Source: Syncephalis plumigaleata | Taxonomy: Eukaryota > Zoopagomycota > Zoopagomycetes > Zoopagales > Piptocephalidaceae | Direction of reading: 5' to 3' | Length of the DNA: 61,542 nt | Assembly: GCA_025201365.1 (NCBI GenBank) | Contig: JAIXMF010000040.1 | Coordinates: 1 to 61,542, forward strand | Shown here: positions 15,779 to 43,780 of the stretch, in pieces | Position numbering within the stretch: position 1 is the stretch's first letter | Layout of the letters: each line of letters begins with the position of its first letter | Position numbers and translations under genes: made by a program | The notes under the pieces: generated by a model | The model's input: only the letters and a program-made list of their open reading frames with translations | Databases searched by the model: none | What the model was told of the DNA's origin: nothing

Positions 15779-16326
15779 CAGCCTTTTTCCATCCAATTTG
15801 CGCAGTTAGCCATTTGTTGTTACGAATAAATAATAATTATGTTAACACTTACGTATTTTTAAGCGGAATATTGGCGATAACCACCGCGGTTAATTTGATT
15901 TTTGTTGTTTGGACCCCCGTTGTCCTTGTCCTCCTTGTCTTGAACGCTTAGAAGGAACGGCACCTCGTTGGAATTGTGTTGGAATAGGGTTGTCCTTACG
16001 AACACTGCGAATAATCTGAATGAAGTTCAAACATGCTGCCATATCCCGATTCCATACACGGTAATTAATAGCTACTTGTAAGTACATGACATGGCAATAT
16101 CCAACTATATTAGTACACTTGTATCGTCTACCTTATAGAATTGATGATGATAGTTATCGCTATCAATAAATGATCCATTACTGAATACTGAATTATTATT
16201 ATTATTATCGTGCTGTGTCAATTAGCATTTCTATGGTGCTAATGGTGCTAGCAATTGAGTAAATCTATTTATGAATAAACTGCAAATGTTAAAGGGTAAA
16301 TGCGCAAATTGGATGGAAAAACACTG
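15779..16326 (-). mobile_element. Short mariner-ended element, copy E1 (548 bp)
   Basis: Bounded by inverted ends CAGYSTTTTTCCATCCAATT continuing to TGCGCA, and flanked by TA on both sides (15777-15778 and 16327-16328). This is the target duplication of Tc1/mariner elements. The coding strand is minus: a fragment with the WNRD motif ends at 15890, about 110 bases from the left end. No transposase is present, so the copy is non-autonomous. It shares its internal sequence with E3 and E4. Confidence 0.85.
15890..16105 (-). pseudogene. Fanzor-like nuclease, C-terminal exon (E1)
   Basis: The predicted exon starts after the acceptor CTAATATAG. It reads through YRVWNRDMAACLNFIQIIRS to a basic Gln/Gly tail and a stop. 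W-N-R-D-x-x-A-A with the following hydrophobic N-F-I matches the final RuvC aspartate motif of TnpB and Fanzor proteins. The rest of a nuclease of several hundred residues is missing, so this copy cannot be active by itself. The assignment rests on one short motif and the element context. Confidence 0.5.
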
Positions 16327-16571
16327 TATCATTGCTTACATCACATTTAATAGTTTACCATTATTTTATTGAATAGCAAGGATCATAGCACTATCATAAC
16401 CAATTCTAAGTGGTATGATTCTTGTCTAATATCCTAGATAGATAGATAGATAGATAGATAAATGTGTGTATAAAAGATGAAAAGATGAAAAGATGAAGAA
16501 AAGAAGAGAGGAAGAGCAATAGAAATGAACGCAATTCATTAGTATCATGCTATCATACTCGCATGATACAT

Positions 16572-18526
16572 CTAGTATTGCTCGGGTTGTCGTTTTAACA
16601 CTGGAATACCCGGTTCTGGTACATCGAAATACACCGAGTTAAACGCAATACGCTCGTTGTTTTTCCTTTCTTGAGCAAGTTTCCGTTGATGCTCCTCTAC
16701 TATGTGTTTCGCTCGATTGGCCGCAGCAAAGTTTTTATGTATAATATTGGAGGACACTTCATGCCATATACTATGATTACATAGTCGTTAGTTAGTCGAG
16801 TCACAATTAATCAATAGGAATCGCGACATTCAAATTAGCTTACCGGCGTGATTCACATTCCGATTGCTCCTCTAATGGCCGAACAATCTTGGCTACCGGC
16901 TGTAGAATGGATACATCTACCAATGATTGTTTCTATAGTATACGTATATATTAGCATGATATATACATGTTTCTTTATTTCTTCGTTCTTTTACCTTTTG
17001 TCCTGTTTTACAGTATTCTATAGCACCCTGCCAACTACCGGTAATAGTGGCCAGTGTGTTGGCTTCCTCGGTTTTCGCATTCTTCTTATCTTTACGTGAA
17101 TCCTTATTGCATCCGTTGCTGTTAATCGAGCCATTATCGGATGCACTAGACGCGAATCGAATGATCTTGCCTTGAACCAGATGTTTCGGTTTACCTAGCC
17201 ATTTCTATATCATTCATCGTTAGTCCTCTATTATATACAGTATGATCTTGTCATTTCTTTTCGTGTATTATCCTCGTATATGCCTACCTCCTCCTTATAG
17301 TCCAATATAGCTTGTAAACCCGTTTTAGCACAGGTAATCGTGCAACGATCGGTAACAACAATGTAGGGACTGCCACGCAACCAACCCGTAACATACGCGT
17401 GTGGATGCGACAAATGATACTCTTCGCCATCTCGTGTGCGCATACGCAGGAATATACCCAGATTCTGGTCACCTGCCTCTATCTTGATGGCTATTACAAA
17501 TGCATTTCACATTATACAATTAATACCAGTCTAATATTACTATTGGTAGCTTGCTACTTACATGTACCCGAGAATCCCACCGAGATATGATCAATGCCTA
17601 CGGCCGTCAATCCTTTCTCCTCGCACGCATACTGATAGGCCGAAACCGGTGGATGATGGCTAATCTGCTCGGTGATATAGGTCACCGTATAGACATCGTT
17701 GTCGCTACCCGTGAACGAGTCTAGTTGTGCCTCCTCCACTACTTTATCACCGAGTGGGGCATCCTTTGGTACTCGCCACCGACAGAGGAATTGCTCTCCT
17801 AGCGTCGAGTTATAAGGCTTAACAAGTTTACCATGCTACATTGTCATCTCGTTAGTGACCATTTACTTAGGTTCCACTTGTAACTAGGTGACTACACTTA
17901 CGACATGCTTCAAATCTTTCGTATACCACCATCGCACTACATTAAGCATACGATCTAGTGGATCATCGGGATCGGCCACACAGCAAAAGTAATCAGGTCG
18001 ATCCATATAGTTCCAGTACTCTAGGTTGGACATTGGCTCCAACAATTGAGCCGGTACCGAGATACGCCTATCATTTCCACGTAGTATATGATTAATAAAA
18101 TGGTAATTGCTTGCTATGATGATGACATTATGAAACGAAATTATATATCATCCACAAATGTTGTCATACTTACATGGACACGATGTCACGTACTCCGACC
18201 AATTTCTTTAGAATACCCCACACTAATTTAAATCGATTCTGTTCACCGTCAGGCTCCGGCACATCCACCGCCAAGGCAGCTTCTTTCGGTGGAGCAGTGG
18301 CTGCGCGTAGTAACTCACGCTGACCATTACTGTCGTCAATATGATCGCTACTCCGCGTACTCGATGCTACCACTAGATTATCCTCGTCGAGCGAGATTGA
18401 TGTATGAGTTATCACATCATCGGGATATGACGAGGAGGTCTTTGCACGATGCAAGTCAACTCCTGATATAGCACTGTCCATGGTATCTACGGTACGCGCA
18501 CTCTGTGACATCTCTTCCGAAGTCAT
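16572..18526 (-). CDS. Oxysterol-binding protein homologue (Osh family)
   Basis: A lipid-transfer protein that exchanges sterol or phosphatidylserine for PI4P at membrane contacts. Seven predicted exons (18526-18174, 18067-17902, 17835-17562, 17490-17288, 17204-16995, 16932-16844, 16770-16572) give 497 residues. The family fingerprint EQISHHPPVSA is at about residues 229-239. Other conserved blocks are WNYMDRPDYFCCVADPDDPL, RMLNVVRWWYTKDLKHV, the YNSTLGEQFLCRW that starts the core, and SRRIWHEVSSNI near the end. There is no PH domain, only a Ser/Asp-rich N-terminal 100 residues, so it resembles the short Osh proteins (Osh4 or Osh6/7 classes); I cannot choose the class. The ATG at 18526 is the first in frame. 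Confidence 0.88.
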
Positions 18527-19562
18527 GATGGCGGAATTCACTTTTGAATGTTAAACGAACCGGCGAATAAACAGTATACGTATGAGCAAGGGGGGAATAA
18601 AGGATAAAGCACGATAGAAAGTGTAACTAGACTATTTCTCTCTCGTTCTCGTTCTCGTTCTCTCTCCCACTTTGTAAGTGTCTATTTATATAGGCAGCAG
18701 TCTTGTGAAATAGCCAAGGCAAATAAGAAGAAAAAGAAGAGGAGAAGGAATATAAAAGTTAATACGAAGCGTGTTATTCCCAAGTAAGTTGTACGTTGTA
18801 TATTGACGATAATAGGAGTAATAAAATGTAATAAAATAATGACAACCAACGACTATAGAGAAACAGTGTGCTAACCAGTCCGAGTGCAAGTGCAATAAAA
18901 AAAAGTCAAGTACCATTTAACAGTGGTAACCGGCGCCTTTTTAGAGATGCATCTTGCTAACCACGTGGTCGTCACAGGTCACGCATGCTGCTCAGTAGAT
19001 TGTCATTTTTGGGGTAGTGGCGTGTTTTTACTGCATAACACCACGCTTCTTGTCTAGTTTGCATTGGAGCGTGTAGCGTAACTATGACATACAATAGAAT
19101 AGAATGGAATAGAATGGCATGGGATGGGATGACTTGACTCGTCTTATCAATCAATGTAGCATGTCATTATCCATTGAATGTGAATGTACCTCATTGATCT
19201 GAATAAGTAATGTGAATATTTAATGTTCTACAATGTAATAAACAGATTAAATGTATATATTGTTACGTGTTAATGACATCACCCAATGTAAATAACCGAT
19301 GAATAGTATCCTATTTATAGTTTAGTGGTTAATGTGAAATCAAATAGCTTCTGTAAGTGTAGAATGGTACGACATGCATAATATAATATATATGTATCGA
19401 CGTTTGTAACAAAATAGTAAACGCTACTACATTCTAAATACGATATTATGTAAAAGCAATAGTTGGCTTTATTATTTTAGAAAAGGGAGAAAGTATAGTG
19501 CAGTAATTGGAGGTATAATTGATAGTAATTGATTGAATGACTGATTTGTTTGTTTGATTGGT
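18527..19562. other. Intergenic, OSH promoter and BiP 3' region
   Basis: About 1 kb between two minus-strand genes. CT/TC-rich runs near 18637-18670 lie upstream of the OSH gene. The rest is AT-rich with no gene I can support. Confidence 0.5.
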
Positions 19563-21636
19563 TTAGAGCTCATCGTGCTCATCTTCCTCTTCTTCTGGCT
19601 TAGTGGCATCAGCTTCTTCTTCGTCGTCGCCACCCTTGGCACCATCACCGTATAACTTGCTAGTGATTGGGTTGACGATCGATTCGACCTCGGCCTTTTG
19701 CTCTTCAAAGTCTTCCTTGCTGGCGGATGAACCGTGCTCCTCGAGCCATTCCAACTTCTCCTTGACAATGTCGTTGATGGTGGTCTTGTCCTCCTCTTCG
19801 AGCTTACCGCCCAATTGCTTCTTGTCGGCCATTTGCGTCTTAATGGAGTACAAGTAGTTCTCCAAGGCATTCTTAGCCTCGACAGTCTCGCGTTGTAGAC
19901 GATCCTCCTCGGCGAATTCCTCGGCTTCCTTGACCATACGTTCGATTTCCTCCTCGGACAAACGACCCTTGTCGTTGGTGATGGTGACCGAGTTCGACTT
20001 GCCGGTACCCTTGTCGAGGGCGGACACCTTCAAGATACCGTTGGCATCGAGCTCGAAGGTAACCTCAATCTGTGGTGATCCACGAGGTGCTGGTGGAATA
20101 CCGGTGAGTTCGAATTTACCGAGCAAGTTGTTCTGCTTAGTCATGGTACGTTCACCCTCGAATACTTGGATAAGTACCACGGACTGGTTGTCGACGGCAG
20201 TCGAGAAGATTTGCGACTTCTTGGTGGGGATTTGCGTGTTACGTGGGATAAGCTTGCTCATAATACCGCCAGTAGTCTCGATACCCAAAGTGAGCGGGTT
20301 GACGTCGAGGAGCAACACTTGACCAGTACCCTTCTCGTTGGAGAGAATACCACCTTGAACGGCGGCACCGTAGGCGACGGCTTCATCCGGATTGATACCC
20401 TTGCTGGCCTTCTTACCATCGAAGAAATCCTCGAGTAGTTTTTGAACCATTGGAATACGAGTGGAACCACCAACCAATACAATTTCGTGGACATCCTCCT
20501 TGGTGAGCTTGGCATCCTTGATGACTTGTTCCACTGGCTTGATGGTCTTCTGGAATAGATCTTTGTTGAGTTCCTCGAACTTGGCACGGGTCAATGTCTC
20601 GGAGAAGTCCTTGCCGTCGAAGAGATTTTCGATTTCAACACGGGTCGACTTCTGGGAGGATAGGGTACGCTTGGCCTTTTCAGCTTCGCGCTTAAGCTTA
20701 CCCATGGCCTTCTTGTCCTTGGTCGGGTCCTTCTTGTGCTTCTTCTTGAATAGTTTTACAAAGTGGCTAATGATACGGTTGTCAAAGTCTTCACCACCCA
20801 AGTGAGTGTCACCGGCCGTGGACAACACCTCGAAGACACCGTCGTCGATGGAGAGTAGCGACACATCGAAGGTACCACCACCGAGATCGTAGACCAACAC
20901 GTGTTGTTCACCGTTCTGTTTATCGAGACCGTAAGCGATGGCAGCTGCAGTTGGCTCGTTGACAATACGCAATACGGTGAGACCGGCAATGGTACCGGCA
21001 TCCTTGGTGGCTTGACGTTGAGCATCGTTGAAATAGGCGGGTACGGTGACGACGGCGTGAGTGACATTTTTACCGAGGTACGATTCGGCGATTTCCTTCA
21101 TTTTGGTTAGAACCATGGCAGAGATTTCCTCCGGTGTGAAGGTCTTGTCCTTGCCCTTGACCTCGACCTTGATGAGTGGCTTGCCACCCTTGTCAATAAT
21201 GTCGAATGGGAAATGCTTCATATCGGCTTGCACGTCCTTATCCTTGAAGCGACGACCGATTAGACGCTTGGCATCGAACACGGTACGCTCAGGATTGTTG
21301 GCAGCCTGATTCTTTGCGGCATCACCAATAAGACGCTCCTCATCGGTGAATGCAACGTACGATGGCGTAATACGATGACCCTGATCGTTGGTAATGATTT
21401 CCACACGACCATGCTCGAATACACCGACGCAAGAGTAAGTGGTACCCAAATCGATACCGATAACTATGATGAATGGTAAATAGCAGATAATATACGTTAG
21501 TATACATGTTTTTATTCGTGATTATTCGTGATTATTTACCTGTGCCATAGTTCTTGGCTGCTTCGTCGTCAGCACCCACCAAGCCCACTAGGGCCGAGGC
21601 ACCGAGTAGAAGCGCGAAAAGCGCTTTACGCAACAT
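19563..21636 (-). CDS. KAR2: ER-lumenal Hsp70 chaperone BiP/Kar2
   Basis: The main Hsp70 of the ER lumen, acting in translocation, folding and the unfolded-protein response. Two exons (21636-21540 and 21463-19563) give 665 residues. The first exon encodes the signal peptide, [20 protein letters not shown], with cleavage probably just after VGA. The ATPase domain starts [15 protein letters not shown] and contains [14 protein letters not shown] and [20 protein letters not shown]. The substrate domain follows, with [14 protein letters not shown], and the protein ends in the retention signal HDEL followed directly by the stop (...DEHDEL). The GC content is higher than in neighbouring genes, as expected for strong expression. 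A CCAAT-N9-ACACG site lies about 290 bases upstream of the ATG. Confidence 0.97.
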
Positions 21637-22537
21637 GTTGGAAAACACGACCAGGTGTGCAAGTGGCTAGAAAGAAAAGAAGAAAGGGTAAGATAACTAT
21701 AAAATATCCGAGTGTCCTTCTTTGTTTAGGACCGTGTATGCTAAGTATTTAAGAAACGATGTAGAAGAAAGAAAGAAAGAGAGAAAGAAAAAGAGACGAG
21801 ATGTCGTACTTCTCGAAGCGTAGCATACCAAAAGTGCGGCTATTTGTATTCGTTTTGAACGCTTTGCTATGAGCGAACGAGCATTCGACACGATCAATTG
21901 ACGTGTAAATAACGGTATCAGAGCGTGTCGCGATCTGATTGGGCCGGATCATCGTCGCTGGCATGATTTGGTTGGTGCCATCGACACTCACCAATTTCAG
22001 AAAATTACTCCGCTACCATTTTAAGATACGTATAATGGCTTGTAGTAGCAGTTGTAAAAAACGTGCTCACATTGAATGTACACTACCAATTGATGCTGAT
22101 GTTGATGGTGGTGCTAATGTATACAGCTAATTAGTGATAGAAATGAAGCAATGACCTCAGACTAATACGAGATTATACCGTAAAGTGTAAGAAAGCACAA
22201 CATATCAAAATAGATACGTGGTGCAACCCACAAATAATATATAATACTGATACACAAGCAAATGAATGAACGAATAGTTAGTATAGATGTGTTCATGTAT
22301 TACATTCTATCAACTCAGTTCTAGTTATCATGTAAATATTGTACTATTTATTCCAAGGAGCAATAATGACATACTATCGAATGTATTATGCAGCATGCAA
22401 CTGTGCCATATGATCATACTTGATACAAATACTTGTTCTCCATCTCATTGCTCACTTTGACTTTACACTCGCTATTTCCACTAGTATTTATCCATTCTAA
22501 TCTATTGATCTGTTTATTACACTTGACCAACATCACC
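21637..22537. other. Divergent promoter region, BiP and small secreted protein
   Basis: About 900 bases upstream of both BiP (minus) and the secreted protein (plus). It includes a GAAA-rich stretch at 21765-21795 and the ERSE-like site given separately. A 31-codon ATG frame at 22035-22130 (MACSSSCKKRAH...) is present, but I do not accept it as a gene. Confidence 0.5.
21924..21942 (-). promoter_or_regulatory. ERSE-like unfolded-protein-response site upstream of BiP
   Basis: On the BiP strand the sequence is CCAAT, nine bases, then ACACG. The animal ER stress element is CCAAT-N9-CCACG, so spacing is exact with one mismatch. It lies about 290 bases before the BiP start codon. Function is inference; fungal UPR elements usually differ. 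Confidence 0.3.
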
Positions 22538-22930
22538 ATGAAACTATCTACTATCATCATTATTGCTACTATTGGCACCTTGGCTAGTTTGACCATGATT
22601 GATGCAATGCCTAAAGGGGCAAATACTGCCGCACCATCTAGCGCATCAGTCGATAATCCAGATAGGATAGTAGACAACTTTGAACAAGCCTATCGACTAT
22701 TTGCAGACAAGCAGAAAGCCGATTTCAAAGACTTTGAAACGAAGCAACAAGCGGATATTGAAGCATTCAAAGCCAAGCTAATGAAGAACGCTGAAGCCAT
22801 TTCAGAGAAGCAAATGAATGACGACCTTAAAGCCTTTATGGATAAGCAACATGCCAGTTTTCAAGAGTTTGTAAATAAACAAACGAAAGAAAGAGAAGAG
22901 TTCATGAAGAAATTCAACCAATCCATTTAG
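22538..22930 (+). CDS. Small secreted helical protein, function unknown
   Basis: 130 residues, one exon, from the first ATG of the frame. The N-terminus MKLSTIIIIATIGTLASLTM is a clear signal peptide, with likely cleavage near IDAMP. The mature part is about 105 residues of charged, almost Cys-free helix. It has a loose repeat of about 11-16 residues built on F-x-x-K-Q: LFADKQKADFKDFETKQQAD, then FMDKQHASFQEFVNKQTKER. This periodicity suggests an amphipathic helix or coiled coil. I recognise no family. It could be a cell-wall-associated or effector-like protein. It lies between BiP and pyruvate kinase at the edge of the accessory island. Confidence 0.7.
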   Translation: MKLSTIIIIATIGTLASLTMIDAMPKGANTAAPSSASVDNPDRIVDNFEQAYRLFADKQKADFKDFETKQQADIEAFKAKLMKNAEAISEKQMNDDLKAFMDKQHASFQEFVNKQTKEREEFMKKFNQSI

Positions 22931-23149
22931 AGCAAGAAGATGAGCAACATCCATTGGTACATGCTCGTTTCAGTCCTATATATATATATATATTGCATAA
23001 TAATGCAAAGCTGTATCAATTGTATCGTTTTATTCGAAATAAATAGGCAACATTAACAATGAATCATTATTGATTGTATACTCTCAATTGCTATTTATTA
23101 GTATGAATGGAAACTAAAATACCAACATGTACGGCGTATCTTCTGCCTA

Positions 23150-24676
23150 CTAGACATTGTTAAGAATACGCATGGTGTTTGTATGGCCGAAACCTCCCTT
23201 CCAGCCTTGGACGGCAATGACAGAGTCACCTCGCTTCAATAGACCGTATTTAACGCCCATCTCCAATGCCCATTGGATACGCGCTTCCACGTCCTCCTGC
23301 CAGATATCTCGACGTTCCTGCGTGTACAAGAATGGATAGCAGCCGCGGTGCAAGTGGCATTGACGAGCAGCACTGGCATCGCGCGTCACCGTAATAATCG
23401 GTACGTGTGGACGATACTTGGCCACGAGTCGTGCCGAGTTACCACTCGTGGTCAACACGATAATGGCGCTGGCGTAATGCTCGATCGATGCACTCACGGC
23501 CGATGACGCCACTGTCTCCGTGTTCTCGGTGGGTTTGGGCGTAAGCGAGCGCAGGCTATTAAATAGCGATGGATAGCAGATGGAGGCCTCGGCCAATGCG
23601 CACACGTAGTTCATCATCTCCACGGTTTGAATGGGGTAGGATCCCTTGGCCGTCTCACCCGACAGCATGACACAGTCCGCGCCATCGAGCACGGCATTGG
23701 CGACATCGCTTACTTCGGCACGAGTGGGACGCGGGTTCGTCGTCATCGACTCGAGCATTTGCGTGGCACAGATCACCGGCTTACCCGCTAGATTACACTG
23801 GGCAATCATGGATTTTTGCGCGACAAATACACGCGAACATGGAATCTCAATGCCGAGATCACCACGAGCAATCATGACACCGTCCGTTTCCTCGAGAATC
23901 TCGCCGAAGTTCTTGACACCTTGGTAGTTTTCAATCTTCGAGATGATCTTAATATGCTTGCCAGCCTCGCCTAGCACACGTCGGATTTCTCGTACGTCCT
24001 CGGCACGTCGAATGAACGAGGCAAAGATCATGTCGACGCCTTGCTCCACGCCGAATTGCAAATCAGCCTTATCCTTCTCGCTTAATGCCGGCAGATCAAC
24101 ATCGGTGTTGGGCAGGTTAACGCCCTTACGACTGCTTAACACGCCGTTGTTCATGGCACGTACGCGTACTTGATTCGATTCCACCTCGAGCACGTCAAAT
24201 GTCATAATACCATCATCAACGTAGATCTTCTTGCCTGGCTCCATTACTTTGGTGATATTCGTGTAGTCGATGTAGATACGCTCGGCCGTACCATCGGAAG
24301 CGTGGGCAGGATCAACGGAGAAGATCATTTCGTGTCCGGCCTTAATGGGTACATCCTGCTCGTCGCGCATGAGACCCGTACGAATCTCTGGACCCTTCGT
24401 ATCTAGAGCGATCGCCAATGGTCTATCCGATAAATCCGAGATCTCTTGTGCCTTACGAGCATTAGCGATAACCGAACCGTGATACTCGTAGGAGCCGTGC
24501 GAGAAGTTCATACGCACAATGTTCATGCCGGCACGTGCCAACGACTGCATCATTTCGACGCTGTTCGTCTTGGGACCAATTGTACAAATAATGCCCGTCT
24601 TACGTGATTGAGCAGGCTCAATATCCACGCTCATTTGAGCCAACCATTCCAGATCACTTGTTGATTGATTATACAT
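23150..24676 (-). CDS. PYK1: Pyruvate kinase
   Basis: The last step of glycolysis, phosphoenolpyruvate plus ADP to pyruvate plus ATP, in the cytosol. A single uninterrupted frame of 508 residues, the usual fungal length. The N-terminal block [11 protein letters not shown] is at 27-37. The active-site signature [18 protein letters not shown] has Lys247 and Glu249, and [10 protein letters not shown] supplies Asp273 for the metal. [12 protein letters not shown] and the C-terminal [16 protein letters not shown], part of the fructose-1,6-bisphosphate site, are present. The absence of introns in a genome where most genes have several is notable and common for highly expressed glycolytic genes. High GC at third positions supports strong expression. 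Confidence 0.97.
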
Positions 24677-24982
24677 GTTGACACGTATACACTACGATAG
24701 AGATAGCAAGCAAGTGGAAACAAAACAAGCAAATAGGATAGAAAGTAGAATAGTACACAAACACGTAAAGCACTATGTTCGTATAAAGAATAAAAAGAAT
24801 AAAAAGAAGAAGGGCGTTGTAAACAGAACAAATGAAAAAAATGTTTGGGGTATCGCCCGATATGTTACTGATAACCAATGCCATTTTAGGTGTAACACAG
24901 ATGATGTCACTAATACGATAACGACAGTATTATGGTTAGATTTTGTTAATTTTAAATACCGGTTGACTATACTTTTATAATA
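24677..24982. other. Pyruvate kinase upstream region
   Basis: AT-rich spacer of about 300 bases between the PYK1 start and element E2. An AAAAGAA-rich tract lies at 24785-24815. No gene. Confidence 0.5.
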
Positions 24983-25741
24983 CAGTGCTTTTCCATCCAA
25001 TTTGCGCATTTATCCTTTAACTTTTGCAGTTTATTAATAAATAGATTTACACAATTGTTAACACCATTATTGCATTACTATTATTACTGAGTAATTGTCA
25101 TTGCCCTAGCAGTTGAGGGAGATGTTAATGATCGCGATATCATATATTGCAATTAGTGATACTAAATAATAGACACGTTGATAGAACTTACATACCTTGA
25201 ATGCAAAGCGATAACAATCATGGATAAGTTGTTTCCCGCTGTTTGATCCTCGTTGTTGCACTGATCCTTCATTTCTTGAACATCTGAAGGTAACACCATT
25301 GATGAAATGTATCTAGAGGTATACGTAATCCTTTCTGAGATGCGCTTCTTATTGCTCATTATTACCCCCAACCATTCCTGCATCATGAGATTGGTGTCTA
25401 TGTTGGTATTACAGCCATGTCCCTTCAACACTCACCATAGTTTCAATATTGAATAATGTTACATTATCCACTATAAATATGGGTCCTATTTTGTACGAAT
25501 TGAATAAACTTATCTTCACCATCCAGTTCAATCGTCCCTATCACACTCTACTCACACTACCTTATCGTATATCGTCTACACATTGTGCTTGAGCAAATCG
25601 AGCAACCATAGCTCCCACACTATCAATGAGAAAGTGTCCTATTACTTGTCATGATCCCTTACGGTAAGTATACCTCATTACAACTTGATATTTATTACAG
25701 TATACTAACTCATTATTCTATTAGATGCACACATCGAAACA

Positions 25742-25951
25742 ATGATTAAGAGGACATGCAAGTTAAAGGATTCGAGTATCAATTGTGGAATCGGGGTTAT
25801 GGTTGCTCGTCTGGATTTCATTCAAATCACCAACTGTCTTCGTAGTGGAACCAATGTTCCAACACACCCTCATCCAAGTGTCGTTGCTTCCAATCATTCA
25901 AGACAAGGAGGACAAGGACATCGAGGAACCAAACAACAAATAACAAATTAA
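25742..25951 (+). pseudogene. Degenerate Fanzor-like C-terminal exon (E2)
   Basis: At the DNA level it aligns with the WNRDMAACLNF exon of the short copies, but an extra base near 25797 shifts the frame just where the catalytic Asp should be. The open frame therefore reads GIGVMVARLDFIQI instead of WNRD. The tail QGGQGHRGTKQQ matches the tail of E1. The copy is inactive as read. Confidence 0.5.
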
Positions 25952-25977
25952 CCAGGTTGTATCGTCAACCGCCGCAC

Positions 25978-25993
25978 TGTCGCCCAAGCGACA
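25978..25993 (+). other. Hairpin downstream of the Fanzor-like exon (E2)
   Basis: TGTCGC and GCGACA form a six-pair stem with a four-base loop, 27 bases after the exon's stop codon. It sits at the same relative place as the larger hairpins of E3 and E5 and is followed by the shared AGAATACRGGG. Its sequence differs from theirs. Confidence 0.4.
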
Positions 25994-26361
25994 AGGCACC
26001 CAGAATACAGGGGTAGAAATACTTGTAAGTGTTATCATAACTATTATTTATTCATAAAACAGAAGGCTAACTGCGCAAATTGGATGGAAAAAGCCTGTAA
26101 AAAGCTGAGAGATTGAATTTAAAGAAAAAGACTCTTGTTCTTTACTGTTATAAATGCTCATTGTTTTTATAACAAAGAATGTTTTATAATCGTGCTACAT
26201 ACAAATTTATTAATCGATTAAAGTAAAACGATCATATTGATGTCGTCCGTTAACATGACATACTTTTGACATTATCATTTTAATGTATGCATGCTCAACA
26301 ATGTAAGAATAGAAGGGCAAAAGTAAGCTTTATTCCTATTGATCAATCAATAGTTCATGTA

Positions 26362-33537: not shown

Positions 33538-35925
33538 TTAAGCAGAATTCAACGGCTTGGCTGCCTTTCCTAGCTTGCTAAGTGCATATGCTATTTTAGC
33601 AGCATCTTGAGAAAGGAATGAATGATCTAGAATAAATCGTTAATATACTTCGTATTATACGCTATACTGTTGCAATTGCTTACCTAGTTTTTCATCATTG
33701 CGTGATATCATAACAATTGTACGTGGATCAGGGCACTTATTTGCACTTTGAGCAGCGGTAGCACGTAGTTTTGCCACCCATTTAGCAGAATCTATCATAA
33801 GTGACACTAGTTAGTACGAATTAATAAATAGATCGATCGATCACTCATACTCACCCCAGTATGCTATAGTAGGGTTATCGAAATAAGTAATCACAAGTAC
33901 ATTGGGATATGCGGTATTAGGCTTAATGTTCTCGTATGGTGAGAATGCCCGAATAGCCTTATAATCATTGATTGATTTAGCTGGATCACCCCATTCACCA
34001 ATAAACATTGAATACCTGGTCTCGTTCTTACTCATTACCATATCCAAGCTATTCAAAAATGGCACTAAAATATTAAATTAGTATTTAGCACTATTCAATG
34101 TATGATCTTTACACTTACTGTCGATAATGGCCACCTTGGCAATATCAGGTTGTCTATTGAGGGCAGTAGCAACAACTGTAGTACCATCGATAAAGCCTTC
34201 AACTACCATTAGATTATGATTGGTATACTTCTCGGATACCAGCGTATTAGTGGCAGACATAAAATCATCAACGAGAGCTGATTTATCATTTTGTATCGTT
34301 GCTGGTTCACCTGCAGCCAAAGTTTTGCCAGTTATTCTTCTGTTATGAACAACAACACAGACAAATCCACGCTTAAGTAGCATTGCGAAATCTTTCCTAA
34401 AGCCCATTTCATTCGTGAAGGGGGCACCATTAGTTTTTAACCAAGCAGGATTCGCACCATTCTTCTGCATTCCACGCTTATAGGCAATGGTAATAGGAAT
34501 ATCAGGTTGATTTCCCTTGCTATCTGGCTTGCCTTTAGCATAGATAAGTTCGGTAACATAATCCGATTCATTGTAGTCGGGTACTGGATCTACATATGTT
34601 CTCGTTGCCTTCTTTGTTGCCATGTTGTAGGAATAGATTGTTGGAGGTGTGATCAATGACGAGTACTCAAATATGAGCGTATCGCTGTTATAATCAGCTA
34701 CTCCTCTATTAGAGGCCTGATATGATTTAGCTGGGAACTCGATATTATGTGATTTCGCATTAGGCTGTAATCTTCTTTCGCTGTCATAGTCGTATACCGT
34801 GACTTGCCGAGGGAGTGCAACCTCATCGAATAGTACAATGTGATTTCGGAAGGCGGCTATAGAGCTAATTCCAAAGTTAACATTTTCCAATACTGGCTTA
34901 TGGGCACTTTTATCATTTAGCTTGTCGACATCGCATACGTATGCCGTCTTCTTCTTGGTATCCTTAGACTCGGCTACAAGTAAGAATTGCTTGTTCAAAT
35001 GGTATACCTCCAAAGCTGATCCAGGCAACAACAATGCCTCAATAGGTACCATTTTACTTGCAGTATCATTGGTGGCATCCAAATAAAAGTGTTGTTGATT
35101 GCCATTTTCCTTTGATATATTTATGAAAAGGTATTGATTGCTGCTGGATTTCTTTACGCTAATAGATGATTCTTTTTGACCGGTGTGGATGACACTATCT
35201 TTATCTGCAGAAGTGCCGATAGTATGTCGCATTAGGCGAGGGCCATCAGGTCCATCAATCGTGTATAGAATGCTCTTTCCGGTGGCACTCCATTCAATTG
35301 TACTATCAGTATTCTCAATCTTATCTGAAAGCAATTTTCCAGAAATGAGATCCTTGAATTGCAGGTTGAATTTTTGGCTGGTGGGGTTGCTTATAATAAA
35401 GGCAATCATGCTATGATTGTTGTTTGCCTTTCCATCATATATCTTTCTGGATCCCTCAGGCAATGTATTAGGATCCACGATAAGTTCCTCGGGTGCATTC
35501 TCTGATCCTAGTTTCTTTCGATATAAAGCAAGAGCTTCTTCTTTACCTATCGATTTGGAATAGTAGCTGTAATTTCCTGAATACCAACTTTCTGTATAAA
35601 AGGATTTACTCTTGGAAACCTTGACAATTTCACTATAAATCTGATCTTTAAGTTGCTGATCCTTGGCAAGCATTCGGTGAGTATAGGCTGTCTCGGCATT
35701 GAGATACTCTTTTACATCCGTACTGTTCCTGCCTTCGTCCTTTATCCACTGGTAAGGATCATCGATAACCTCGCCATGGTACTTGTGCTGGAATGGTTTT
35801 GTCTTGGCCACCGGTACTTGTTCCGACTGAGATGCTGGAAGTGCGTGCAATGGTACGGCCGATCCAATAAGTACTGCAAAGTAGACAAGTGCTACAAACT
35901 TGCTTGTATTACGATAACAGAACAT
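33538..35925 (-). CDS. Secreted prolyl-oligopeptidase-like pseudoenzyme, paralogue B
   Basis: Four predicted exons (35925-34119, 34064-33855, 33791-33684, 33626-33538), each in the same phase and almost the same length as in paralogue A, again give 737 residues. The signal peptide and first 65 residues are nearly identical to A, while the rest is clearly diverged. At the catalytic positions Ser579 is Ile (EGFIDG instead of EGISDG) and His712 is Phe (DHSFLSQD instead of DDSHLDQD). Asp665 remains (TYFDNPTIA). Without Ser and His it cannot work as a serine peptidase. The frame and all splice sites are intact, so it looks like a maintained pseudoenzyme or decoy and not a decaying gene. Confidence 0.82.
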
Positions 35926-36095
35926 TCGGACTGCAAGATAATGGTTGAGAAAACGTGACGTAATGTATTGATTGTTGTGAGTGTAAGATGATGATGATTT
36001 ATTGCCAAAGACGAATAAAATGCGGCGGTTTAAATAGTATTTACAGCAGATTGCTCCAGACATCATTATAACGTGCTTGAAATAAAGCTGGTAAG

Positions 36096-37019
36096 CCTTC
36101 AGCATCGTGCAATGTACGACCACGTTTATCCCGTCAATGTGGTGTTGCGTCAAGTTATCCAGTATTAGGTATGTACTGTAGTGGTTATTCCAAGTCTTGT
36201 CAATACCAATTTGACACATTCTGTCGCATGTACTTGCAATCCTTGTTATGATTGCAATGGATGTTTCATGTTGTACATGTACTCCTCAAGAGTACCTTTA
36301 CCATTTGTTCGTATATTGGTGCATCGTGCTTGACATATCTTTTCTGGTTCAACCTGTAATATAAACCAGCCATTCTTTTATCCACCATACATATTTGTTC
36401 TATATCTATTGGTAAAGGAACTGTTAATGGACTCATGGTGTTTACTTGATATTTGTTCTTGTGAAATCACTAGAGCATTATTAGTGAAGCAAGAGCATGC
36501 TTGTTTTCAGGAATGTTTGAACTATTCCGTAGATGATGCGACTTGTACTCATATCTCCTGCTTAGTGATTATTATTGGGTAGTTGCTTGCTTATACTCAT
36601 AGCTAAAGCATCATGAATGTATTCAATAAACGTAAGTAATATTGAAGAGAGTTTACATTGATAGCACAATAATAATAATCATGTTGAAAACAAGAACAAT
36701 ACGGCGAGTGTATAACTAGTACGAAGCCATTAGATCAAATATAAAGGCAAACTGTTTATTCTAATAATAGTCGAGAATAGTTGCAGTGATGGTGATACAA
36801 ACCTATACCTCCCCTTCCTAAAACGTGTAGTATCTACTGGACTGATCTAACAAGGCACTTATCAAAGCAATGAAACGGCGAAACTACAGCAAGGAAGAAA
36901 AGAGAAAGAAGGAAATGTATATGTGATGACATCAAAGAGCATTGTGCATCGTACGAAAGGCGTATGATTCAAAAGTGCAAAGCGGTCAAACGTATCATAG
37001 GCATGGGGGACCTGTGCAT
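36096..37019. repeat. Near-identical upstream duplication, unit B
   Basis: The partner of 28911-29834. The equal length and apparent identity contrast with the diverged coding regions beside it. Weaker similarity continues to about 37130. Confidence 0.85.
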
Positions 37020-37705
37020 CAGTCACCGATGCACTCCAGTCAATCAGGCAGGTTCTAATCTCCATTAGTATGATTATTGGTACTAATTGCAATCTATCAC
37101 GGCATGTCATCGAATGATCCCACAATCATATGGACATGAATATGTTTGATGGCATCTATAATGCGATACGACATTCATCCGATGAATATGATCTATTGTC
37201 ATTATTAACTACGCTGTATAAACCAACATACTTATGATCTAATCAATCCATTCATTCATTTACATACACATGTAGTTTACTCCATCAACAGTTTCCCCAA
37301 TTGCTCATAGACTTGTGTAGCACATACTGAATCCTGCTAGTATAATTACTAGCAATACTCAACATTATACCACCATCCTTTGTTGCTTTTATCTATTTGT
37401 TGCTGAACTATAGGCGGCATTATACCATTGCAGCAAAGATACAATGACATTAAATGATACGAAGCTTACATTGCCGTATTCACGATACATACTCGAATAA
37501 ACACAGATATTAAGCAATGTATGGCAATCAATTCAACGTGGAATAAAGCATTCGATACTTGCATGTCAATAATCATCATCCAAGATAGCCGTAACATGCA
37601 TTATAAGATATTAAAGAACTAGTAAGATTATTATTGTGATATATTTGGATTAGAATCAACAAATTGAATATTTGAAAGTGAAGGGAGACGAGCATCGTAT
37701 AAACA
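37020..37705. other. Intergenic, no gene seen
   Basis: Fading similarity to the paralogue A upstream region until about 37185 (including the short repeat), then unique AT-rich sequence up to element E3. Confidence 0.4.
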
Positions 37706-37795
37706 CAGGCTATTTCCATCCAATTTGCGCAGTTAGCCATTTGTCTTTACGAATAAATAATTGTTAACACTTACAAGGACTCCCGTATTCTGTTT

Positions 37796-37824
37796 CCCAG
37801 CCCCTCTCTGGAGAAGGACTAGGG
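37796..37824 (-). other. Candidate guide-RNA scaffold hairpin (E3)
   Basis: Read on the coding strand it folds into about 12 pairs with one bulged T and a four-base loop: outer CCC/GGG, then AG/CT, then an inner CTTCT/AGAGG. It lies about 20 bases after the Fanzor-like stop codon and is followed by AGAATACGGG. E5 has the same fold with a changed inner stem. Confidence 0.4.
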
Positions 37825-37845
37825 CGATAGCGATTACCATCGCGG

Positions 37846-38061
37846 TTAATTTGTTATTTGTTGTTTGGTTCCCTCTTGATCTTGTTCTTCATTGCTTGAA
37901 CGTTTAGAAGGAACAGCACCTCGTTGGAATTGTGTTGGAATACCCTTGTCCTTACGAACACTGCGAATAATCTGAATAAAGTTCAGACATGCAGCCATAT
38001 CCCGATTCCATAAACGATAATCAATAGCTACTTGTAAGTACATGACATGGCAATATCCAAC
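37846..38061 (-). pseudogene. Fanzor-like nuclease, C-terminal exon (E3)
   Basis: Reads YRLWNRDMAACLNFIQIIRS, keeping the WNRD motif, with the tail EEQDQEGTKQQITN before the stop. It starts after the acceptor CTAGTATAG. Upstream exons are absent. It differs from E1 by several substitutions that preserve the frame. Confidence 0.5.
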
Positions 38062-38442
38062 TATACTAGTACATTTGTATCGTCTATATTATAGAATTGA
38101 TGATGATAGTTATCGCTATCAATAAATGATCCATTACTAATACTGAATTGCTATTATTATCATGCTGTTTCAATTGGCATATCTACGATGATAATGGTGT
38201 TAACAATTGTGCAATTTATTTATTAATAAAGAGCAAATGTTAAAGGATAAATGCGCAAATAGGTTTTATACTATAACAATGACGAGTTCTTGAGTGGAAC
38301 AATTACAGCACCACGTCATTAGCACCATCATTGTTCCATCAACATTTGTCTCTCCTCCTCATACATTGACCTGTATACCCTTTATCTGTGCGCTTTTACT
38401 TACTCGCTCAACTTCTACGGTGATTAGCTACTCTTTACCATA

Positions 38443-39508
38443 ATGTCAATCAAGGTAGGCTGCTGTAAAGTAATGAATAAGTAGGACACGTAGGATTAAT
38501 ACAAAATCATGCTTATAGGCAGAATTTGCGGTCAGCATGACGTGCGACTCATGCGTTAACGACATAAAAACTGTATTGAAAAATGAAGCTGGTTAGTAGA
38601 CAGTGGACTAATCAATATATACACGCTAATAATTGTCGTTGTCGTTATTAGATGTTGACCGCATTGATATCGATTTAAAGAACCAAACGGTAGTTGTAGA
38701 AGGAAAGAGTAAGTGAATAGATAGAGCAACTGCATTGTATGTAACCAATTTATTTGAATGCGATAGCACCACCATCACGCTTAGCACGTCTCTTAAAACA
38801 GACGGGTCGTACGGTTATTGTACGAGGCATGGGCACCGCTCAAGGTAATGCTACATTGAACGCTATTCATGCTTACTAACTAGCTATTGCGATATCGGTT
38901 GTTTAGGTGATCATGCAGGTGCCGCAGTTTGTATATTCGAATCCTACACGCCATTAGATGCTAGCGAGCCATTAACGCAGGATCGATCGGCCGAGCAACC
39001 GCGCGGACTTGCTCGTCTCGTACAAATCAATGATCAGTTGTGTTTACTAGATATTACCGTACAAGGTTTGGCGCCCGGTAAACATGGTGTTGCCATTCAT
39101 AGCAATGGTGATATTAGTCGTGGACCTGCCAGTTGCGGCGACCATTACGATCCTACGGGTAAAGCGACACATGGACCACCGGACAACGCTGATGGCAATA
39201 CTGTAGCGCATGCCGGCGATCTAGGCAATATCACGGTGGATGAACACGGCTGGGGTGATCTCGTATTGGAGACACGTCGATTCCGCGTCTCTGATGTGAT
39301 CGGCCGTTCTATGGTAGTGGCCCATGGTGCTGATGATATGGGCGCTGGATTATCGGCTACCTCGTCGAAAGATGGCGGTGCAGGTCAAGGTGCACTATGT
39401 GGAGTTATTGCACGATCAGCCGGTGTATTCGCTAATTCCAAGCGTGTCTGTGCCTGCGACGGACGTACTTTATGGGAGGAGGCACGTCTACAAGAACCTC
39501 GCTTGTAA
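38443..39508 (+). CDS. CCS1: Copper chaperone for superoxide dismutase
   Basis: Delivers copper to Cu/Zn superoxide dismutase and forms its disulfide. Five predicted exons (38443-38454, 38519-38591, 38652-38708, 38767-38844, 38907-39508) give 273 residues. The Atx1-like domain has the copper site MTCDSC at residues 11-16. The SOD-like domain follows: GKHGVAIHSNGDISRGPASC, GDHYDPTGKATHGPPD, HAGDLGNITVDEHGWGDL and ALCGVIARSAGV. The C-terminal domain carries the CxC copper-transfer motif CAC at 255-257 in RVCACDGRTLWEE. All three functional domains are intact. The first exon is only 12 bases (MSIK). It lies between elements E3 and E4. Confidence 0.92.
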
Positions 39509-39635
39509 TGGTTCATATACATAAATACGTACATATGTGTCTATGTGTTTGACAGTGAACAAATAGTAAAGTAAACTTTAAATTTATCAATGTTAGTATT
39601 GAAAGTTTACCCGTTCGTTGTTGTCAGGATGACTA

Positions 39636-40181
39636 CAGGCTTTTTCCATCCAATTTGCGCAGTTAGCCTTCTGTTATTACGAATAAATAATATTTAACAC
39701 TTACAACTAGCCTGTATTTTGAGGTGTAGATAGCGATAACTATCACGGATGTATTGTTTTTTGTTGTTTGGTTCCCTCTGGATCTTGCTCATCATTGCTT
39801 GAACGTTTAGAAGGAACGGCATCTCGTTGAAATTGTTCTGGAATACGGCCTTTAGCACGAAGACCGTGAATAATCTGAATGAAATTCAGACATGCTGCCA
39901 TATCCCGATTCCATACACGATAATCAATAGCTACTTGTAAGTACATGACATGGCAATATCCAACTATACTAGTACATTTGTATCGTCTATATTATAGAAT
40001 TGATGATGATAGTTATCGCTATCAATAAATGATCCATTACTAATACTGAATTGTTATTATTATCATGCTGTGTCAATTGGCATTTCTATGGTAATAATGG
40101 TGTTAACAATTGAGTAAATCTATTTATTAATAAACTGCAAATGCTAAAAGATAAATGCGCAAATTGGATGGAAAAACCCTG
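39636..40181 (-). mobile_element. Short mariner-ended element, copy E4 (546 bp)
   Basis: Intact ends CAGGCTTTTTCCATCC and GGATGGAAAAACCCTG with TA on both sides (39634-39635 and 40182-40183). Its left end begins only about 127 bases after the CCS1 stop. Internal sequence is as in E1 and E3. Confidence 0.85.
39743..39964 (-). pseudogene. Fanzor-like nuclease, C-terminal exon (E4)
   Basis: Reads YRVWNRDMAACLNFIQIIHG, then a stretch GLRAKGRIPEQFQRDAVPSK that differs most from E1/E3, with tail DEQDPEGTKQQ. The WNRD motif is intact. It is the most divergent coding version among the short copies and yet keeps an open frame. Confidence 0.5.
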
Positions 40182-40394
40182 TAATTAATTTTTTTATATT
40201 TTTTATTCATGCTTGAATTGTAACTTCTTGCTTTTCTCTTTCCTATTGATTGATAAACCCTTTCATACTTTCAAATCAATACATATATTCTCTCTTTCTC
40301 TCTCTATTATTACTATCGAGTTAGCTTTTTACTGCTCTACAGAATATTGACGTTGTACCCATTCTATTTGTCCACCGTGTTAATAGTAGATACA

Positions 40395-41120
40395 ATGTCG
40401 GAAATTGCAACAAATACACCTGGTGCAGATAGTGGAGTGACAGAGGGAAACCATAGATTTACTTGTCTAGCCTGTCATGTGGCATTTCACTCGGCTGATC
40501 ACCAGCGACAACACTATCGAACGGATTGGCATCGTTACAACTTGAAGCGTAAAGTAGCCGAACTGGCCCCAGTTACTGCTGAACAATTTGCCGAGAAACT
40601 ACTAGGTAGGTTGGCATAATCCATTAACGATGTATATCTCTTCTTCAGCTGCTAATAATAACAATAATAGCACAACGAACTCAGGCGGATGAAGCACAAG
40701 CACAAGCATCATATACAAACGAGTGTCGTATTTGCGGGTAAGTGATAGTCCTATAACTACTACTAAAAGAAATATAAATACTTATCATCATCATTGTGTA
40801 ATATTATTAAATGAAATAGAAAAAACTTTGCATCTGAAAATGCTTACACGCATCATATGCGATCAAAGAAACATCGAGAAACGGAACAACGAATCGCTCA
40901 GGGTAAGTGATGCAAATTGTCGCTCTTCTTTTGTTGCTCATATCCTTTGTTATCGATTATGCTTTTATTGCTAACAGGTAAGCAAACACCTGCTAAACCG
41001 CAACGATCTGCTACACATCGCGTACAAGCCTATGACACGATGAGTAATGCTTCATCGGCCATGGATTCTATTCCTGCATTTAATGAAGTGGAAGAAGACG
41101 TGAAACCATCATCATCGTCT

Positions 41121-41152
<32 letters not shown>

Positions 41153-42177
41153 TGAAACAACAGCCATCGACGATGATGGCATGATCGATGAGACAGCCTC
41201 ACCCGAAGAGGTGATGCGTGCCATTGACGAGCATATTGCTCAGGCACCCCGACTAGCCGATGAGGACTGCCTATTCTGTACGCATAGGAGTGAATCATTT
41301 GAAAGCAACATGCTACATATGAAGAAGCAACATAGCCTATTCATCCCGGATATGGACTATCTGGTGAATCTACGTGGTCTCATCCGCTATTTAGGCGAGA
41401 AGATCTCTGTGGGTAACATTTGTCTCTATTGTAATGGACGCGGTCGTAACATGCGTAGTATGGAGGCAGTACGTCGTCATATGGTAAGTGGCATCAGTCG
41501 ACATTGATACGAAATAAACAGCATCGATAACATATACTTACATCTATACAGATTGACAAGGGTCATACCAAGATTGCTTATGGCAATGAACGAGATGTCC
41601 TCGAGATTGCCGATTTCTACGATTTCCGCACTAGTTATCCCGATCACGCTGAACGTCATAGCAATGAAGGGGATGAAGACGAGGAGATGCCGCTAGCTGA
41701 AACGTAAGCTTACCATTTGTTTGTCTAGTTAGTCATCTAGTTATTAACAAATCATCCCATTTAGTGATTCTGGCATTATTGATGAAGGTTACGAATTGGT
41801 GTTACCATCAGGTGCACGTATTGGTCATCGAGCACTACGTCGCTACTATCAACAGAATGTTCGTCCAGAAGATGTAAGTAATAAGATGAAATGTTACACT
41901 AGTAGTAGTAATCATGTTATTAATCATATACATGAATGGATGTATGAATGAATAGAATCGTGAATCCGTTCAAGTACATAAACTATTGACGCAACACGGC
42001 CATCAAGGCGCACAACGTGCTCAGACCGAGTGTCGTGCCCTACAATTGATGAGTGAATTCCAACGACGTCAAGTGTTCTCGCATCAAGAGTCACGTCGTC
42101 GTAACGACTTTAGAACTCGGGTTGGAGTCAAGGCCAATGCTCTGCAACGCTATTTCCGTGAACAGGTTCTTTATTAG
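40395..42177 (+). CDS. REI1: Zinc-finger 60S biogenesis factor Rei1/ZNF622
   Basis: A cytoplasmic factor that helps release export factors (Arx1/Alb1) from new 60S subunits. Seven predicted exons (40395-40605, 40671-40737, 40820-40902, 40978-41483, 41552-41703, 41765-41873, 41956-42177) give 449 residues. Finger 1 is FTCLACHVAFHSADHQRQHY with Cys24/Cys27. Finger 2 is ECRICGKNFASENAYTHHMR followed by SKKH. A poly-Ala/Ser/Glu linker precedes DCLFCTHRSESFESNMLHMK, KQHSLFIPDMDYL, the family block LRGLIRYLGEKISVGNICLY and CNGRGRNMRSMEAVRRHM. The C-terminus has LVLPSGARIGHRALRRYYQQ and ends near GVKANALQRYFREQVLY. The ATG at 40395 starts the MSEIATNTPG form. Confidence 0.93.
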
Positions 42178-42723
42178 AAAACAAAGAACGCACGAAAGAA
42201 GGAACGAAAGAAGGAAAGAAGGCGTTAATTCTATCGATTGGAGTATAGAGTTGGCGTTGTTAACCTGTTTTCTTGTACACCGTAGTGTTGTGTTTTCTTA
42301 TTAGCATCGTCATCGTCACATCATCGTCACATCGTCATCGCCATCGTCATCATCGTCATTATTCCTACTGTTGTTGCTGTTGCTGTTGTCTTATTCTCCT
42401 CATTTACTTACCGGTTAATAGATAATTGATTATTTTGGGTTATTACTTGTAACCAATGGTCATTTACATTGATTATCCATTACCGTAGCAATAAATTTAG
42501 CATTGTGCTTTATTATTTGTTAAACTCTTATACATCGCCTTTGTTCTCGTACCACCAATGTTGAATAAAAGTGTATAGCTTATGATAAGCAGTTGTGACA
42601 ATGTTCATTTAACCAACTAAACGAAATAAATCATGTCATTGGATCGATTGAATAGCGGTGTTTTAATGATGACAATGACTCATTATCTGATATCATTACA
42701 TGATCGCATTCGTTGATGTAATA
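42178..42723. other. Intergenic, REI1 3' region
   Basis: No gene. A TCATCG-type repeat lies at about 42305-42360, then AT-rich sequence up to element E5. Confidence 0.5.
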
Positions 42724-42818
42724 CAGGCTTTTTCCATCCAATTTGCGCAGTTAGCTTTTTGTTTTATGAATAAATAATATTTAACACTTACAAGTACAAG
42801 TACCCCCGTATTCTGTTT

Positions 42819-42852
42819 CCCAGCCCCCCTTCCCTTTGGGGAAAGACTGGGG
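42819..42852 (-). other. Candidate guide-RNA scaffold hairpin (E5)
   Basis: On the coding strand: outer CCC/GGG, a bulged C, AG/CT, then an inner TTTCCC/GGGAA with a small loop and extra Gs on one side. Position, outer stem and following AGAATACGGG match E3, while the inner stem differs. Confidence 0.4.
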
Positions 42853-42867
42853 TGATAGCGATAACCA

Positions 42868-43083
42868 TCACGGATGAGTTGTTTTTTGTTGTTTGGTTCC
42901 CTCTTGATCTTGCTCATCATTTCTTGAATGATTGGAAGCAACGACACTTGGATGAGGGTGTGTTGGAACATCGGTTCCACTACAAAGGCAGTTGGTGATT
43001 TGAATGAAATCCAGACGAGCAACCATAACCCCGATTCCACAAACGATACTCGAGTCCTTTAACTTGCATGTCCTCTTAATCAT
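42868..43083 (-). pseudogene. Degenerate Fanzor-like C-terminal exon (E5)
   Basis: The same degenerate version as in E2: the frame reads GIGVMVARLDFIQITN in place of WNRDMAACLNFIQI, so the catalytic Asp is lost. E2 and E5 share the lesion, so it arose before the two copies separated. Confidence 0.5.
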
Positions 43084-43780
43084 TGTTTCGATGTGTGCAT
43101 CTAATAGAATAATGAATTAGTATACTGTAATAAATATCAAAGTGTAATGAGATATACTTACCGTAAGGGATCATGACAAGTAATAGGACACTTTCTCATT
43201 GATAGTGTGGGAGCTATGGTTGCTCGATTTGCTCAAGCACAATGTGTAGACGATATACAATAAGGTAGTGTGGGTAGAGTGTAATAGGGACGATTGAACT
43301 GGAAGGTGAAGATAAGTTTATTCAATTCGTACAAAATAGGACCCATATTTATAGTGGAATAATGTATATAGGTGTGAAGATATTTGCATAGCGGCTGATA
43401 ACAACTCACTCAGACCCATAGTCTGAGCTGTCCTCGGTTCACATTTCATTAACATCGCTGTATGTACTTATCAACATGTTCCCGCGACCCGGATAACGGT
43501 TTATTGCAACGAGCCGAAAAGCTTTCATGTAAAAGGAGAAGACAACAAGATTCACGCTCCTACTTTCACATCGAATAAATCCCACTTTCTCTCTATCCTA
43601 GTGTATAATCTTTTTATTGTAATCATTATTATAATTGTAACAGTGTTATGGATTACGTTTTAGATTTCCCTTAATCCCATTTCACAACTATTATATTAAT
43701 GTTAACAATTGTGTAGAGTTATCCATTAATAAACTGCAAATGTTAAAGGATAAATGCGCAAATTGGATGGAAAAACACTG

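Follow-up and report, generated by a model that had tools for sequence, protein, structure and literature searches.

A TA-flanked element family of Syncephalis plumigaleata with predicted Fanzor1 genes and putative short derivatives

A contig of 61,542 nucleotides (nt) from Syncephalis plumigaleata (JAIXMF010000040.1, assembly GCA_025201365.1; contig C319 of the 32.6-Mb, 383-contig genome searched here), hereafter the window, contains five short insertions with similar inverted ends and recognizable pieces of a coding sequence. What are these insertions, where does their coding sequence come from, and how do they spread? The first-pass annotation, made from the sequence of the window, had interpreted them as members of a mariner-ended family that carry C-terminal exons of Fanzor, the eukaryotic TnpB-type nuclease, and had predicted a full-length parent elsewhere in the genome. 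According to the present analysis, the window copies are probably non-autonomous deletion derivatives of a TA-flanked Tc1/mariner-type family, whose long members encode Fanzor1 and no recognizable transposase.

Full-length members and the Fanzor1 protein

The predicted parents do exist: loci L002 (contig C1, 4.0 kb) and L003 (contig C2, 5.0 kb) have the same ends as the window copies and contain, toward the right end, a long exon 1 (open frames of 645 and 687 amino acids [aa], respectively), a 61-nt intron with GT-AG borders, and an exon with the motif WNRD. Their protein is identified as Fanzor1 from comparisons with PDB sequences. The spliced L003 product (768 aa) matched Parasitella parasitica Fanzor1, PpFz1 (E = 1.7e-108), SpuFz1 from Spizellomyces punctatus (5.5e-40), and Guillardia theta Fanzor1, GtFz1 (5.4e-8), and L002 exon 1 matched the same three proteins (1.6e-105, 1.2e-35, and 0.014). 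The exon of the window copy at 15779, taken alone, matched PpFz1 with an E-value of 0.0084 and SpuFz1 with one of 0.3. Sequences of solved structures were used because the Pfam models are too distant from these Fanzors: a scan of the Fanzor exons gave nothing above the cut-off (OrfB_IS605 and Cas12f1-like TNB appeared only at E of about 0.1), and a search of the genome with the PF07282 profile gave no match.

Two outcomes had been named in advance as contrary to the Fanzor proposal, a full-length copy encoding a protein unlike RuvC and an unrelated family for the WNRD exon. Neither was observed: the L002 and L003 proteins align with Fanzor1, and the WNRD stretch of spliced L003 aligns with the C-terminal RuvC motif of both PpFz1 and SpuFz1. 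The metal ligands of SpuFz1, D383, E541, and D606 (PMC10432273), align, with positions counted by hand, with the D of VDPG, the E of LIDEHKTSKCCP, and the D of WNRD. The RuvC-I motif reads VDPGRR in every copy where this stretch was read; the shifted RuvC-II glutamate of Fanzor1, described as ExxxxxxCxxC (PMC10711439), appears as EHKTSKCCPxC or EYMTSKCCPxC in 28 of the 29 distinct loci read; and the zinc finger CPTC...CTHQNC, followed by WNRD (RuvC-III), aligns with the sequences of the PpFz1 and SpuFz1 structures. The closest solved relative, PpFz1 (PDB 9cf0; PMC11423790), has DPG, the shifted glutamate, and WNRD in common with the S. plumigaleata protein but contains about 105 residues between the matched blocks (chain 991-1096) where L003 has about 27 (526-553); the extra stretch probably corresponds to the FRI insertion of PpFz1.

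The only locus with a different residue at the glutamate position is L002 (recorded a second time as L013), which has a lysine there. In nuclease-dead regulators of the TnpB type, catalytic residues are lost in a conserved lineage. Such a lineage of Fanzor, suspected from the lysine in L002, was rejected, given the retention of the glutamate elsewhere. L002 (C1:1614600-1618950) is otherwise open, and its product may bind without cutting.

No transposase was recognized inside L002 or L003 among the other frames inspected by eye, and six of these frames had no Pfam match up to E = 0.1. In L003 (C2:776300-781600), about 2.4 kb between the left end and the Fanzor start contain no recognized gene; the antisense frames of this stretch have a high content of L, S, and F, and no Pfam model matched them. 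At another locus, L001 (C1:1009400-1013900), the family ends surround a 1163-aa reverse transcriptase-like frame (identified by eye), probably a nested retroelement.

A six-frame search of the genome with L002 exon 1 produced 88 matches, which were assigned by eye to 41 loci. For 30 of these loci, the listed open frame measures 600 aa or more; one of the 30 (C340:227859) proved to have only 539 aa on reading. Among the 32 locus records read (L002, L003, and L013 to L042, with the duplicates L013 and L040 left out), exon 1 is open over 600 aa or more in 22. The ratio of nonsynonymous to synonymous substitutions (dN/dS) between these 22 frames has a median of 0.41 and a range of 0.20 to 0.59 (227 of 231 pairs, those with dS above 0.05), so that the exon 1 frames are under purifying selection. 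At several Fanzor loci, the matched part is interrupted by stops or gaps, and one locus contains a nested Tc1 element.

Ends, size classes, and the hairpin after the stop codon

All five window copies were found where the annotation had placed them, and they share inverted ends of approximately 26 bases, which do not, however, form a strict 26-bp repeat. The TA flanks were confirmed in four of them, in the form TA-CAG...CTG-TA; the exception is the copy at 37706-38265, in which AAACA precedes the right end and the left end lacks its terminal bases. The open exon WNRDMAACLNFIQI was recovered, as proposed, in the copies at 15779, 37706, and 39636, and in both copies of ∼1.1 kb this exon is out of frame by one extra base (CGGGGTTATGG versus CGGGATATGG in the open copies).

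The 18-base core of the ends, TTCCATCCAATTTGCGCA, was counted 9 times in the window when up to 3 mismatches were allowed, versus 0.10 expected from shuffled sequences. Genome-wide, with up to 2 mismatches, it was found 495 times in the forward and 491 times in the reverse orientation, and its reversed control was not found at all. In the loci examined, TA precedes 35 of 35 left ends and 58 of 60 right ends (non-redundant flanks; ends recognized by the core with up to 3 mismatches). Most left ends start with CAGTGT and most right ends with CAGGCT or CAGACT, and the bases just inside the repeat are TTTATCC on the left and GTTAGCC on the right, so that each element has a direction. A pattern search of viral contigs gave 5 matches, none of them a relative.

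Short copies with these ends fall into three classes and, judging from their alignments, are internal-deletion derivatives ("ghosts") of Fanzor elements. Class B copies (535 to 586 bp, and one of 656 bp) consist of the initial ∼251 bp of an L002-like element fused to the ∼290 bp that run from the WNRD exon to the element's end; in the 15779 copy, the left part aligns with L002 positions 7-251 and the right part with L002 from position 3709. Class C copies (1057 to 1159 bp) combine a short left end and other sequence with the end of exon 1, the intron, and a frameshifted exon 2. Class A copies (226 to 238 bp in the three read) retain only about 65 bp of the right end and have lost the hairpin described below. 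Exact patterns, each covering one 31-base size range and thus giving lower bounds, detected at least 71 copies of class A and at least 76 of class B. Among 42 distinct short copies with the exon, 33 are open over at least 48 aa, 3 of them frame-shifted (L006, L012, and L053) and 30 in frame; as this sample was partly picked by similarity, no claim of selection on the ghost exon is made. The aligned class C copies share the extra base, so that at least their exon is not used as protein. At the sequence level, classes B and C have the features of Spu-1-type ghosts, namely, the same ends, no Fanzor gene, and a retained candidate guide-RNA region.

Directly 3' of the Fanzor stop codon, 60 of 65 right ends carry a hairpin, the loop of which (TTATCG-like or TATCGT) lies 97 to 142 nt before the right end. 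The five ends without it are three class A right ends (two in L004 and one in L008) and one end each of L056 and L057, elements with right-type sequence at both ends. The arms vary between subfamilies and yet pair: GGTTG/CAACC, GATTG/CAATC, GGATTG/CAATCC, GATAG/CTATC, GTGATGG/CTATCAC, and GCGG-TGG/CCA-CCGC. A few ghost copies, such as those of the L046 and L047 types, have a weakened stem (-4.5 kcal/mol). For 30 distinct arm pairs, the mean energy was -6.59 kcal/mol with their own arms versus -5.27 (standard deviation 0.32) with swapped arms, and none of 5000 swaps was as low, a count that is not a probability because arm swaps ignore relatedness. The hairpin arms covary, and the hairpin is kept in classes B and C. 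In three structures, stem-loop 1 of the Fanzor1 guide RNA is seven base pairs long (PMC11423790), and in other Fanzor1 systems the terminal inverted repeat and the target-site duplication are predicted to be part of the scaffold (PMC10711439). Since its position and size fit Fanzor1 guide RNAs, the hairpin is most likely their stem-loop 1. The hairpin of the 37706 copy stands outside the set of 65 right ends, which required TA.

Table 1. Element copies, exon fragments, and candidate guide-RNA hairpins in the window
Feature	Positions	Strand	Remarks
Class B ghost element, 548 bp	15779..16326	-	TA flanks; right end 15779, left end 16326
Fanzor C-terminal exon fragment, WNRD to stop	15890..16054	-	Open
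Candidate guide-RNA stem-loop 1	15863..15887	-	GCGG TGG loop CCA ... CCGC; same place as in L043; also present in the minimum-energy fold
Class C element, 1115 bp	24983..26097	+	TA flanks; remnant of exon 1 end, intron, frameshifted exon 2
Candidate guide-RNA stem-loop 1	25955..25970	+	GGTTG-TATCGT-CAACC
Class B ghost	37706..38265	-	Truncated left end; right end without TA
Fanzor C-terminal exon fragment	37846..38010	-	Open
Candidate guide-RNA stem-loop 1	37824..37843	-	GCGATGG-TAATCG-CTATCGC; read by eye
Class B ghost, 546 bp	39636..40181	-	TA flanks
Fanzor C-terminal exon fragment	39743..39913	-	Open
Candidate guide-RNA stem-loop 1	39724..39746	-	GTGATAG-TTATCG-CTATCTACAC; overlaps stop codon; located via L010 (last 230 nt identical); appears in the computed fold of the 39636 copy
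Class C element, 1057 bp	42724..43780	-	TA flanks; intron and frameshifted exon 2
Candidate guide-RNA stem-loop 1	42852..42871	-	GTGATGG-TTATCG-CTATCAC, 7 bp; located via L011 (last 230 nt identical)

The surrounding region is itself repetitive. The window from 15.7 to 44.4 kb has a second copy at C1:2.714-2.736 Mb, 85 to 99% identical over the stretches compared and containing all five insertions, and the part from about 26.2 to 30.0 kb seems to be repeated at 33.4 to 37.2 kb. The 39636 ghost is flanked by frames (38.9-39.5 kb and 40.4-42.2 kb) that, by eye, resemble a Cu/Zn superoxide dismutase-type protein and a C2H2 zinc-finger protein.

Target sites, mobility, and rival explanations

The base preceding TA is A at 208 of 326 left-type versus 88 of 369 right-type ends (exact patterns; Fisher p = 1.1e-26), with the proviso that these patterns separate the two sides incompletely: 26 of the 35 left ends in the examined loci fit the left pattern, one begins in the right-type manner with CAGGCTTTTT, CAGTGTTTTT is found at none of the right ends, and at least two class A left ends (on C32 and C90) were counted as right-type. 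Such mixing would blur the difference, not create it. Read in the Fanzor direction, the bias gives ATA before the guide position, which fits the measured target motif of PpFz1, ATN (PMC11423790). It also resembles the CA that is fixed before the left end in S. punctatus (PMC10432273).

The family copies are strongly mosaic, as measured within this family on assembled sequence. For 588 two-state sites of exon 1 (22 copies) and for 37 sites of the final 230 nt (60 sequences), the compatibility of neighboring sites was above that in all 500 permutations of site order, and r2 at the right ends decreases from 0.30 for sites up to 15 bases apart to 0.055 for those more than 150 bases apart. For the left ends (26 sequences, 14 sites), the test was uninformative, with r2 of 0.02 to 0.05 at all distances and a permutation count of 352/500. 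The mosaic pattern is expected from exchange between dispersed copies, not from independent repeated mutation; break repair from other copies could explain it, and so could assembly chimeras.

A mechanism can be proposed in which the hairpin would be stem-loop 1 of an omega RNA whose 3' end crosses the right-end repeat and the TA into the flanking DNA, which would serve as the guide. Guide RNAs made from ghosts would be loaded by Fanzor made from the long copies, and all classes would be moved by a transposase supplied in trans. After excision, the emptied site would be cut by Fanzor, with the motif ATA before the guide, and repair from a filled copy would restore the element; repair from other copies would also account for the internal deletions and the mosaic sequence. 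Extended to the entire family, this becomes a Fanzor-driven guide network: about 41 nuclease loci would serve hundreds of ghosts, each guiding to its own site, emptied sites would be re-cut and refilled, and repair from dispersed copies would let the family evolve as recombining populations do, yielding short mosaic tracts as well as deletions that become new ghosts. Such a network appears unlikely.

Several results tell against the mechanism. Folds of the whole scaffold in two window copies were no better than those of shuffled sequences (z = -0.36 and +1.53). A second guide-RNA stem (GGCT...AGCC; longest helix 4.33 at right ends versus 2.30 at left ends) was discarded as a candidate for want of covariation, 472 of 500 arm swaps doing as well. 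If the A bias stemmed from retention through an element's own guide RNA, it would be expected to be missing from class A. In copy number, however, the hairpin-less class A roughly equals class B, and it shows an equal bias, A preceding TA in 12 of 18 class A versus 16 of 25 class B left ends. This comparison covers elements on contigs up to C134 (37 of 71 in class A and 37 of 76 in class B) among the matches listed (100 of 208), less the 19 of 37 class A and 12 of 37 class B elements that matched no listed left end. Neither amplification nor site bias thus needs the element's own guide RNA, which speaks against the simplest homing model, and the A bias does not prove guide-driven homing or target-motif selection; it more probably arose upon insertion or came from the elements from which class A is derived.

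Also on the negative side, no empty site was found when 34 elements with both flanks were compared with the examined loci, so that the TA duplication is unproven. A match of L057 spanning the element site in L056 was rejected as an empty site: it is 76.6% identical and contains additional bases, and an element is present at both loci. On C1, the duplicate of the window region provides no empty alleles, since all five insertions occur there as well. Finally, no transposase with the family ends was found in searches with PF03184 and PF13358, which were not exhaustive. The mariner assignment of the annotation therefore retains the TA and CAG ends as its sole basis. PF03184 had no match in the genome and was silent in control genomes, too. 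PF13358 had 31 matches, and the four places examined (L075 to L078, representing the main frame lengths of 380, 383, 375, and 170 aa) showed no family ends within 4 mismatches. The 380-aa Tc1 protein of L075, which lies inside a Fanzor locus, was rejected as the family transposase because its element has different inverted ends of its own, and L076, L077, and L078 were rejected for having none of the family ends. L075 (C1:572080-573680) is a 1.6-kb Tc1-type element with an open DDE_3 transposase and long ends, inserted in a Fanzor gene; the PF13358 list includes three further places with a 380-aa frame and one with 376 aa, all scoring equally to L075.

With respect to the left-end A, a reasonably likely explanation is an oriented target preference of the transposase, to which the Fanzor motif has adapted, the bias then bearing no trace of motif selection by Fanzor. 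The equal bias of the hairpin-less class A favors this explanation. So does the argument that nucleases adapt to their transposases (PMC10711439). Against it, the target preference of Tc1/mariner transposases is usually taken as symmetric around the TA, and the sites of class A could go back to longer elements.

For the ghosts as such, some weight, albeit less than an even chance, can be given to the possibility that they are ordinary miniature inverted-repeat transposable elements (MITEs), in which exon and hairpin are kept only because they adjoin the right end, the hairpin is inherited and not selected, and Fanzor plays no part in their spread. The abundance and site bias of class A are as expected for MITEs, a recent origin suffices for the 30 in-frame exons among the 42 copies of the similarity-biased sample, and the extra base of the aligned class C copies marks at least their exon as unused. 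Against MITEs stand the presence of the hairpin in the class B and class C right ends read and its paired changes between subfamilies, although the latter may have been inherited from different parents, as well as the observation that, in human cells, SpuFz1 can cut with RNAs from S. punctatus ghosts (PMC10432273). That the Fanzor of the family is decaying and inactive and the ghosts are fossils is improbable: the lysine of L002 at the position of SpuFz1 E541, the stops or gaps at several loci, and the nested Tc1 element agree with decay, but 30 of 41 loci list a long frame, 22 were read as open, 28 of 29 keep the glutamate, and dN/dS is well below 1.

Relationship to known Fanzor1 elements

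As putative deletion derivatives of Fanzor1-encoding elements, the window copies have known counterparts, and the S. plumigaleata family is, on sequence grounds, a further member of the mariner-type Fanzor1 elements with ghosts. Fanzor1 in TA-flanked mariner-type elements without a transposase was described by Bao and Jurka in 2013 (PMC3627910), for example, in PUl-4, which has Fanzor1 only and Mariner terminal inverted repeats. The present family resembles those elements in the Fanzor1 gene, terminal inverted repeats, putative TA duplications, and lack of a recognized transposase in the element; it differs in its many short derivatives, with and without the candidate guide-RNA hairpin, and guide RNAs are not mentioned in the consulted portion of that paper.

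In S. punctatus, according to the consulted part of the report by Saito in 2023 (PMC10432273), Spu-1 comprises 42 Fanzor loci and 134 ghosts of ∼550 nt with the guide-RNA region, there is no transposase with the Spu-1 inverted repeats, and ghost scaffolds from four loci are active in human cells. Similarly, S. plumigaleata has Fanzor loci together with gene-less ghosts that keep the candidate guide-RNA region, and no transposase with the family ends was found. In contrast to S. punctatus, as far as described there, ghosts of classes B and C retain sequence of the Fanzor exons and can be aligned as deletion derivatives, the ghosts come in several size classes, one of them hairpin-less, the ends occur in more copies, and the gene has two exons. 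The literature searched, consulted in part, contained no report of visibly Fanzor-derived ghosts with guide-bearing and guide-less classes side by side.

In 2023, the role of Fanzor for its transposon was stated to be unknown (PMC10432273). In S. plumigaleata, many open Fanzor genes occur in a single genome together with hairpin-bearing and hairpin-less ghosts, all bounded by the family ends. If the two ghost types were compared for spread, site choice, and excision scars, guide effects would be distinguished from transposase effects, and in this respect the genome offers a natural setting for studying the role of Fanzor in transposons.

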